Positions 18,996 to 21,263 of a DNA stretch of 64,000 bases are shown here, in pieces; the stretch's first letter is position 1, and every line of letters begins with the position of its first letter. The notes beneath the pieces were generated by a model. It worked only from the letters and a program-made list of their open reading frames with translations. It ran no database searches and was not told the origin of the DNA. The position numbers and the translations under genes are program-made. Location of the stretch: NCBI RefSeq assembly GCF_003667565.1, contig NZ_RCUX01000007.1, positions 62,001 through 126,000 of the forward strand. The letters are read 5' to 3'. This stretch comes from Mycetocola tolaasinivorans (GTDB taxonomy: Bacteria > Actinomycetota > Actinomycetes > Actinomycetales > Microbacteriaceae).

Positions 18996-19448
18996 ATGTC
19001 GAAGGTAATTCTGACCCACGAGGTCACCGGTCTCGGTGCCCCCGGGGACGTTATCGAGGTAAAGAACGGCTACGCCCGTAACTACCTCGTGCCCAAGGGC
19101 TTTGCTGTTGTCTGGACTCGCGGTGGCGAGAAGCAGGTTGAGCAGATCAAGGCGGCTCGCGCCGCTCGTGCGCTGCACACCCTCGAGGACGCTCAGGCGC
19201 TCAAGGCAAACCTGGAGCAGGGCAAGGTCAAGCTGACCGTTAAGGCCGGCCGCGAAGGCCGCCTGTTCGGTTCGGTGAAGACCACCGACATCGCCGCTGC
19301 CGTTTCGGCTGCGGGCGTTGGCGAGATCGACAAGCGTAAGGTCGAGATCCCCAACCCGATCAAGGCAACCGGTGACCACAAGGTTATCGTTCGTCTGCAC
19401 GACGAGGTTAGCGCGACCATCACCCTTCAGGTGGTAGCCGCCAAGTAG
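18996..19448 (+). CDS. rplI: 50S ribosomal protein L9
   Basis: A 150-aa L9 with the N-terminal domain [22 protein letters not shown], the conserved [15 protein letters not shown] and the long connecting helix, then the C-terminal rRNA-binding domain ending [16 protein letters not shown]. It starts 11 nt after rpsR with AAGGAG in between. Last gene of the ribosomal/ssb operon, followed by two hairpins. Confidence 0.97.
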
Positions 19449-19453
19449 GTTGT

Positions 19454-19520
19454 TCTCCCGGACTCGCTCCGGGAGACCCCACACATTCACGGCCCCGGAT
19501 CTTTGATCCGGGGCCGTTTT
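19454..19520 (+). terminator. Double hairpin terminator after rplI
   Basis: Two perfect hairpins lie in series: TCTCCCGGA/TCCGGGAGA (19454-19476) and a 13-bp stem, ACGGCCCCGGATC with its complement, at 19489-19517 with a TTT loop and a T4 tail. The second is a good intrinsic terminator. Confidence 0.8.
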
Positions 19521-19532
19521 GTGCACAGTCGG

Positions 19533-19716
19533 TGTGGATGACGGCAACGTTCATCCACCACTATAAAGAGTTTTTCCCCACAGCCTTGTGGAAGAATTAA
19601 AACCCAGGTGAGAGGGCATTTATTGTCCAAACTTTTCATGTTGTCCACAGGTGTTCACACAGGTTGTGCACACGCGTGAGCGAGTTTCCCGCAGATTTTC
19701 CACAGAGTTATCCACA
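19533..19716. other. Cluster of DnaA-box-like 9-mers upstream of dnaB
   Basis: Two perfect DnaA boxes are present: TTGTCCACA at 19641-19649 and TTATCCACA at 19708-19716. Close variants are TTTTCCACA (19696-19704), TTGTCCAAA (19623-19631), TTGTGCACA (19664-19672), TTCCCCACA (19574-19582) and, on the other strand, TGTGGATGA (19533-19541) and TGTGGAAGA (19587-19595). The stretch is richer in A+T than its surroundings. dnaA and dnaN are not in this window, so I call it a DnaA-binding region, not an origin. The remaining bases up to dnaB (19717-19889) show no gene. Confidence 0.6.
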
Positions 19717-19889
19717 GGTGCATTTGTGCATTCTGGGGGTGCTCCCGTAGCGTGGTCGAGGATCCCTCTCGCGGGCCACTATCTGCGGTTACGTCGAGGG
19801 AAGGTGTCAGTGGTTCATGGTGAACTGCGACTGCGCAAACCGAAGATGATCTCCTCGGGCAACGCGCGCGGCATAAAAGGAGTTTTTCG

Positions 19890-21263
19890 GTGTCAATTGC
19901 GGATCTAGGCCTCTCAGACCCCGGGCTGGGCGAGGGCTCGCGTGCGGAACGAACCCCGCCGCACGATCTGCTCGCCGAGCAGTCGGCCCTCGGCGGCATG
20001 CTCCTGTCAAAGGACGCCGTCGCCGACGTGGTCGAGACCGTCCGCGGTACCGACTTCTACGTGCCCAAGCACGAGATTATCTACGACGCCGTTCTCTCCC
20101 TGTACTCGCACGGCGAGCCCACCGACGTGATCGCGGTCACCGATGAACTCATCAAGCAGGGCGAGCTCTCCCGCGCCGGCGGCGCCGACTACCTGCACTC
20201 CCTCACCAGCCTCGTGCCCACCGCGGCCAACGCCGGCTACTACGCGAGCATCGTGGCCGAGCGCGCGCTGCTGCGCCGCCTGGTCGAGGCCGGCACCCGC
20301 ATCGTCCAGATGGGCTATCAGGGCGAGGGCGAGGCGCTTGATCTCGTCAATAACGCCCAGGCCGAAATCTATGCGGTGAACGGCAACGTCGACACCGAAG
20401 ACTACGTGCCCCTGGCGGATGCCCTGGGTGCGGCCATCGACGAGATGGAGGCCGCGGAGGGCAAGGACGGCCAGATGACCGGTGTGCCCACCGGTTTTGT
20501 CGAAATGGACGAACTCACCAACGGGTTCCACCCGGGCCAGCTGATCCTGGTTGCCGCGCGACCCGCGCTCGGTAAGTCCACCCTCGCACTCGACTTCGCG
20601 CGCGCCGCGGCCATTGGCCACAACATGCCCGCGATCTTCTTCTCCCTGGAAATGGGCCGCGCCGAGATCGCCATGCGTCTCATGGCCGCCGAGGCCTCGG
20701 TTCCCCTGCAGAACATGCGTAAGGGCACCGTTGATCAGCGCGACTGGACCAAGATCGCCTCCACGCGCGGCAAGATCAACGACGCCCCGCTCTACATCGA
20801 CGACAGCCCCAACATGACCCTCGTTGAGATCCGTGCCAAGTGCCGCCGACTCAAGCAGAAGGTGGGCCTCAAGCTCGTTGTGATCGACTACCTGCAGCTG
20901 ATGACCTCGGGCAAGCGCGTCGAGAGCCGTCAGCAGGAGGTCTCCGAGTTCTCGCGATCGCTCAAGCTGATGGCTAAGGAACTCCAGGTCCCGGTCATTG
21001 CGCTGTCGCAGCTGAACCGTGGGCCCGAGCAGCGTGCCGATAAGAAGCCCGCCATCTCCGACCTCCGTGAGTCCGGATCGCTCGAGCAGGACGCCGACAT
21101 GGTCATCCTGCTGCACCGTGAGAGCGCGTATGACCGCGACAGCCCCCGTGGTGGGGAGGCCGACCTCATCGTGGCCAAGCACCGTAACGGACCAACCCGA
21201 GATGTCGCCGTGGCCTTCCACGGCCACTTCTCCCGCTTCGCGGACCTGGCACCGGGTTCCTAG
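19890..21263 (+). CDS. dnaB: Replicative DNA helicase DnaB
   Basis: The hexameric helicase that unwinds DNA ahead of the replisome. The 457-aa product has the N-terminal DnaB domain (PPHDLLAEQSALGGMLLSKDAV) and the RecA-like C-terminal motor, with Walker A ARPALGKST near residue 225, the motif H1a FFSLEMGRAEI, Walker B LVVIDYLQLM and SDLRESGSLEQDAD. There is no intein. Start GTG 19890 has AAAGGAG about 8 nt upstream. It stands alone after a DnaA-box cluster, suggesting DnaA-linked control. Confidence 0.97.
   Translation: MSIADLGLSDPGLGEGSRAERTPPHDLLAEQSALGGMLLSKDAVADVVETVRGTDFYVPKHEIIYDAVLSLYSHGEPTDVIAVTDELIKQGELSRAGGADYLHSLTSLVPTAANAGYYASIVAERALLRRLVEAGTRIVQMGYQGEGEALDLVNNAQAEIYAVNGNVDTEDYVPLADALGAAIDEMEAAEGKDGQMTGVPTGFVEMDELTNGFHPGQLILVAARPALGKSTLALDFARAAAIGHNMPAIFFSLEMGRAEIAMRLMAAEASVPLQNMRKGTVDQRDWTKIASTRGKINDAPLYIDDSPNMTLVEIRAKCRRLKQKVGLKLVVIDYLQLMTSGKRVESRQQEVSEFSRSLKLMAKELQVPVIALSQLNRGPEQRADKKPAISDLRESGSLEQDADMVILLHRESAYDRDSPRGGEADLIVAKHRNGPTRDVAVAFHGHFSRFADLAPGS

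Follow-up and report, generated by a model that had tools for sequence, protein, structure and literature searches.

DnaA is already known to act upstream of dnaB, the gene for the replicative helicase, in mycobacteria. In vitro, DnaA of M. tuberculosis enriched five genomic regions, including one upstream of dnaB, and ChIP-seq in M. smegmatis recovered the homologues of the same five regions (PMC7738170; here and below, papers are cited for the excerpts that we used). A mycobacterial DnaA mutant that binds less upstream of dnaB under-expresses dnaB (PMC7738170). In Caulobacter, dnaB belongs to the DnaA regulon (Hottes 2005, via PMC8203912 and PMC7738170). At nrdAB, a target in E. coli, DnaA may act either as activator or as repressor (PMC8203912). 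E. coli DnaA prefers or needs pairs of boxes 2-3 bp apart (PMC11317965). The excerpts of PMC13270200 and PMC6478999 contain nothing on DnaA control of dnaB, and a search confined to the open-licence literature turned up no article dealing with how dnaB boxes are spaced or conserved across the class, which is a weak negative.

The locus described here resembles the M. tuberculosis and M. smegmatis dnaB sites in that DnaA boxes lie upstream of dnaB, in the vicinity of oriC (PMC7738170), but it belongs to another family and has a different box layout, a comparison drawn from part of PMC7738170. In particular, a double box flush with the -35 is a feature of our locus that is not among the mycobacterial features described in that part (PMC7738170). 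The likeness to Caulobacter dnaB lies in predicted upstream DnaA boxes and a response to DnaA (PMC8203912, PMC7738170), although Caulobacter belongs to another phylum. With the E. coli double boxes our locus shares two same-strand boxes separated by a 2-3 bp gap, whereas the targets named in the excerpt are other genes, dnaB not among them (PMC11317965). To the known presence of DnaA upstream of mycobacterial dnaB, which ranks among five strong sites there, our analysis adds a fixed geometry and class-wide conservation, the boxes recurring in nearly every family of the class that we sampled.

DnaA boxes in the rplI-dnaB gap

We analyzed a 64-kb stretch of DNA (hereafter the window; C1:62001-126000) from a genome of 3.44 Mb in 21 contigs. 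The original prediction for this window was of a DnaA-box cluster between rplI and dnaB, with two perfect boxes and at least six near matches in an A+T-enriched gap. Pfam confirms both genes, and the two perfect boxes lie where they had been placed and are the only two in the window (Table 1). Positions 19533-19716 hold 2 perfect, 4 one-mismatch and 6 two-mismatch boxes, some of them overlapping; the claim of at least six near matches therefore stands if two mismatches are allowed and fails at one mismatch, where there are four. The cluster itself was confirmed, its counts being unmatched by chance: across 2000 dinucleotide shuffles of this 184-bp sequence, 2 perfect boxes, 6 boxes at ≤1 mismatch or 12 at ≤2 were never reached. 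Outside the gap, no 185-bp stretch held more than 2 boxes at ≤1 mismatch (window sampled every 5 bp). The predicted A+T enrichment was likewise found, with a GC content of 46.7% in 19533-19716 vs 66.8% across the window. All boxes from position 19623 onward point in the same direction.

Table 1. Features of the rplI-dnaB region, with positions counted from the first nucleotide of the window
Feature	Position	Strand	Basis
rplI (ribosomal protein L9), upstream neighbour	18996..19448	+	ORF, Pfam
Hairpin with a 13-bp stem and trailing TTTT, probable rplI terminator	19489..19517	+	Fold -27.5 kcal/mol, z -6.3
DnaA box TTGTGCACA, one mismatch, lying beyond the originally predicted cluster	19519..19527	+	
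DnaA box TCATCCACA, one mismatch	19533..19541	-	
DnaA box TTGTCCAAA, one mismatch	19623..19631	+	
DnaA box TTGTCCACA, perfect	19641..19649	+	
DnaA box TTGTGCACA, one mismatch	19664..19672	+	
14-bp stretch, degenerate copy of the family-conserved cGgcgTTtc.cgCa	19680..19693	+	Anchored alignment, 68-locus consensus
DnaA box TTTTCCACA, one mismatch, upstream half of the double box	19696..19704	+	
DnaA box TTATCCACA, perfect, downstream half of the double box, 3 bp from its partner	19708..19716	+	
Predicted -35, TTGTGC, 7 bp past the proximal box	19724..19729	+	Conserved spacing
Predicted -10, TAGCGT, 18-bp spacer	19748..19753	+	Conserved spacing
dnaB, replicative helicase, GTG start	19890..21263	+	ORF; Pfam DnaB, DnaB_C

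The promoter elements were judged from conserved spacing, and an E. coli-type consensus promoter scan gave no match at the predicted dnaB promoter. A consensus terminator scan found none, and the rplI terminator was judged from folding. As a separate observation, the 14-bp stretch between the boxes could represent weak DnaA sites in register or the site of another protein. An RNA element in the dnaB leader was considered and rejected: the sole Rfam match was a plant-type snoRNA on the opposite strand, far under the cut-off, and the leader folded no better than its shuffles (z 0.33).

Genome-wide there are 30 perfect DnaA boxes, and groups of at least 2 perfect boxes within 200 bp occur only at oriC and at the dnaB site. 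A looser pattern, TTNTNCACA, matches the genome 132 times (positions are for the first 100 of the 132 matches). The original prediction had noted the absence of dnaA from the window and expected the origin beside dnaA, not at the cluster, and both points hold. On the same contig as the dnaB cluster, dnaA occupies about C1:38050-39486 on the minus strand; the oriC box cluster (C1:37608-37835, with n = 3 perfect boxes at C1:37608, 37788 and 37827) is flanked by dnaA and dnaN, and further boxes precede dnaA. The dnaB cluster lies ~44 kb from oriC.

Conservation and spacing of the boxes upstream of dnaB

Among the best 80 of 587 relatives, the dnaB closest to that of this genome is from Leifsonia sp. 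Leaf264 (86%), with Labedella and Cryobacterium also near, which places the genome in the Microbacteriaceae. These 80, nearly all Microbacteriaceae together with three Arthrobacter, formed our set of relatives; one locus (L068) was dropped with its dnaB start missing from the contig, leaving 79 usable loci, to which the geometry counts add the window to give 80. Kinship inflates these within-family counts. Within the 500 bp before dnaB, a perfect box was present in 75/79 loci and a box at ≤1 mismatch in 79/79. The relatives carry 125 perfect boxes there, vs a mean of 0.3 (maximum 4) for permuted patterns (n = 60), and 0 perfect boxes in 500 bp of dnaB coding sequence. A tblastn search for rplI upstream of dnaB gave no hit in 22 loci, each of which still carries a perfect box within 800 bp (one of them, L036, offers only ~830 bp of upstream sequence); the boxes therefore follow dnaB, not rplI. 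The boxes are thus kept in all 79 usable loci, these 22 included, and no usable locus kept the dnaB context and lost the boxes.

For a wider set within the class, we chose 60 genomes by hand out of 194 that had a dnaB match, covering 25 of 37 families and leaving out the window's own family, split (probably intein) matches, contig ends and a few available families. Here a perfect box lay within 500 bp before dnaB in 40/60 genomes and a box at ≤1 mismatch in 58/60, the two genomes with no such box in that interval being L102 and L150. The total of 66 perfect boxes compares with a mean of 0.2 (maximum 4) for permuted patterns (n = 60). In 20 hand-picked genomes from the phylum outside the class, we found 2 perfect boxes vs 0 for the reversed pattern and 20 vs 4 at one mismatch, and 9/20 had no box upstream of dnaB. 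This signal is weak, and a phylum-wide feature was rejected; a strong box signal at dnaB is, on the genomes compared, a feature of the class Actinomycetes.

Anchored on the last perfect box, the family plan has TTnTCCACA ~57 bp upstream, TTGTGCACA ~45 bp upstream, the 14-bp conserved stretch, a weaker box 12 bp upstream, TTATCCACA itself, TTG 7-8 bp on, and then TAnnnT. A box followed by TTG within 10 bp and by TAnnnT 16-20 bp further on was found in 59/80 loci, the window included, vs 2.9 loci on average (maximum 9) when the 60 bp after each box were shuffled; the promoter-like motif was absent at that distance from the other 21/80. The gap between box and TTG is 7 bp in 50 loci and 8 bp in 8 (58 forward boxes), with one inverted box at 5 bp. 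By contrast, the dnaB start lies anywhere between 85 and 300 bp beyond the last perfect box (the relatives' starts being approximate, as extrapolated from protein matches). This near-constant distance from box to promoter, combined with a variable distance from box to start, argues for a promoter role over titration alone. In the wider set, box and promoter-like motif occurred together in 15/58 box-bearing genomes, vs a shuffle mean of 1.2 and maximum of 5, and the motif was absent at that distance from 43/58. Two families of this set are positive through an inverted proximal box at a gap of 4-5 bp (f19, 6/6 genomes; f20, 5/5 genomes), and the polymerase contact would therefore not be identical everywhere.

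A perfect box has a same-strand partner (≤2 mismatches) at exactly 3 bp in 69/80 loci and at 2 or 3 bp in 72/80, and no other same-strand gap from 0 to 15 bp exceeds 16/80 loci; a partner at 2 or 3 bp was found in 19/60 genomes of the wider set. The window has an E. coli-type double box of this kind in the same-strand pair 19696-19704 and 19708-19716. Over distances of up to 150 bp, same-strand boxes show a preferred period close to 11 bp in each of the two sets, although these distances are not independent counts because of shared ancestry.

A strict form of the double box (TTNTCCACA, 2-3 bp, TTRTCCACA) occurs in this genome only at dnaB and at C9:44348-44368. Across 36 genomes there were at least 16 matches among those listed, vs 0 for the reversed pattern, and 26 genomes had none. 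Among the matches listed, the strict form lies at dnaB in 2/36 genomes (G000 and G174); it is therefore no class signature, the partner in the pair usually being weaker. Separately, we note that the double box at C9:44348-44368 (L084) sits between uncharacterised ORFs.

Proposed control of dnaB by DnaA and alternative readings

We consider it probable that the rplI-dnaB gap is the dnaB promoter with a DnaA-binding array, and that this promoter is controlled, most likely activated, by DnaA. The boxes, their spacing and their conservation were computed here, whereas a dnaB promoter, its activation and any cell-cycle timing are what we infer. In the proposed mechanism, a DnaA dimer would form on the promoter-proximal double box (19696-19716), and DnaA would spread across further boxes that lie mostly on one strand and about one helical turn, or multiples of it, apart. 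Because 7 bp separate the end of the proximal box from the predicted -35, the bound DnaA would stand beside RNA polymerase and would set dnaB transcription, most likely upward, so that the supply of helicase would track how much DnaA is present. That the effect is most likely activation is taken, by analogy, from a single DnaA mutant from another family. Regulation of dnaB, which the original prediction had raised along with titration and reactivation, is well supported by the dnaB-linked boxes, the fixed distance to the promoter motif and the mycobacterial binding and expression effect (PMC7738170). If this is true, the replication initiator would directly set the supply of its own helicase across a large bacterial class, and the spacing rules predict which bases are important at the dnaB promoter.

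We regard as fairly unlikely the alternative that the array serves chiefly to sequester DnaA shortly after initiation and has little effect on dnaB expression. Its location would suit titration, as the array is only ~44 kb from oriC and the 214-kb oriC contig, ~6% of the genome, carries 9/30 of the perfect boxes. Boxes in E. coli cluster near oriC and titrate DnaA (PMC12371093), and the DnaA-box clusters of Streptomyces coelicolor, which may resemble ours in lying near the origin, are stated to restrain initiation (PMC5742627). Yet of the nine boxes on the contig, 3 belong to oriC, 1 to the dnaA promoter and 2 to the dnaB site, and titration needs no fixed distance to a promoter motif, whereas this distance is 7-8 bp in 58/80 loci. 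Titration may occur alongside regulation.

An opposite sign of control, in which DnaA beside the -35 would hinder polymerase and lower dnaB transcription at high DnaA, strikes us as distinctly unlikely. A gap of 4-8 bp separates the proximal box from the predicted -35, and E. coli nrdAB is repressed by high DnaA-ATP (PMC8203912). This box overlaps neither the predicted -35 nor the predicted -10, however, and reduced binding in M. tuberculosis was accompanied by a fall in dnaB expression and not by a rise (PMC7738170). Activation by DnaA, the direction of that mycobacterial effect, is the reading that we carry forward.

The original prediction had also offered DnaA reactivation as a role, and this is disfavoured in our genome. 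As a dense cluster outside oriC, the array recalls both the DnaA-reactivating DARS sites and the DnaA-inactivating datA. It shares with datA, whose essential boxes have a common direction, a position near the origin (PMC5742627), and with DARS1 and DARS2 a tight group of boxes outside oriC and two same-strand boxes spaced by 12 bp (PMC5742627; K-12 sequence). In both DARS cores of E. coli K-12, however, an opposed box lies 14 bp from the second box and a third lies 12 bp on, and the window has no opposed box at that 14-bp spacing. Only 2/80 loci of the window's set have an opposed pair and 0/80 the triple, and the cluster was rejected as a DARS, its core geometry being absent. The known sites work with IHF, which datA requires, and DARS2 also with Fis (PMC5742627). 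It is very improbable that the site is DARS-like or datA-like, and reactivation at this genome's dnaB is judged unlikely on its box geometry.

Other families differ in this respect. An opposed pair at 14-15 bp lies upstream of dnaB in 18/60 genomes of the wider set, vs 0.0 in shuffles: 6/6 in f19 (L103-L108), 5/5 in f26 (L131-L135), 4/5 in f20 (L110-L113), 2/6 in f18 (L119, L120) and 1/1 in f37 (L146). A third box at 11-13 bp is present in 8 of these genomes (f19, 6; f18, 2), again vs 0.0 in shuffles.

A second replication origin at the dnaB cluster, to which an A+T-enriched gap with a dense box array could point, has the slimmest of chances and was rejected because dnaA, dnaN and a box cluster with 3 perfect boxes are on the same contig; moreover, GC skew (in 2-kb steps) makes no marked switch at the cluster.

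A second box cluster downstream of crgA

A second DnaA-box cluster was observed at C1:25011-25160 (L086:3012-3161), with 1 perfect box and several near matches. Flanking it are crgA and a rhomboid gene in convergent orientation, and farther out a cyclophilin gene, the last named by eye. Among 30 crgA loci of the class, the best-scoring of 115 matching genomes and with this genome included, 36 perfect boxes fall in the 500 bp after crgA vs 2 for the reversed pattern, and 89 vs 11 at one mismatch; 25/30 loci have at least one box. A DARS geometry was rejected here, as the usual separation of opposed boxes is 10 or 23 bp instead of 14. The cluster is a probable counterpart of the mycobacterial Rv0010c-Rv0011c DnaA site, Rv0011c being presumably crgA. 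Its conservation would give the mycobacterial site probable relatives among harmless bacteria, whereas the authors who described that site saw no obvious correspondence elsewhere (PMC7738170).

Two places in the genome carry the palindrome TTACAYNNRTGTAA, C1:25048-25061 (L086) and C9:44322-44335 (L084), both beside DnaA boxes. As a tentative reading, which we consider possible but less likely than not, the dnaB array and the crgA 3' cluster could be two stations of a class-wide, non-oriC control of DnaA. The dnaB station would serve helicase supply, and the crgA element, in many genomes joined to TTACA-N4-TGTAA for a putative partner, would adjust how much DnaA is free or active; where a family has DARS-like geometry, its dnaB promoter may recharge DnaA as well. 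Counting against the palindrome's link to the boxes, the strict palindrome was found in 10/28 relatives, 7 of which have no box within 120 bp of it; 2 carry it at crgA and 1 more beside boxes. At ≤2 mismatches, it lies within 250 bp after crgA in 18/30 loci, vs 1.4 by shuffling.
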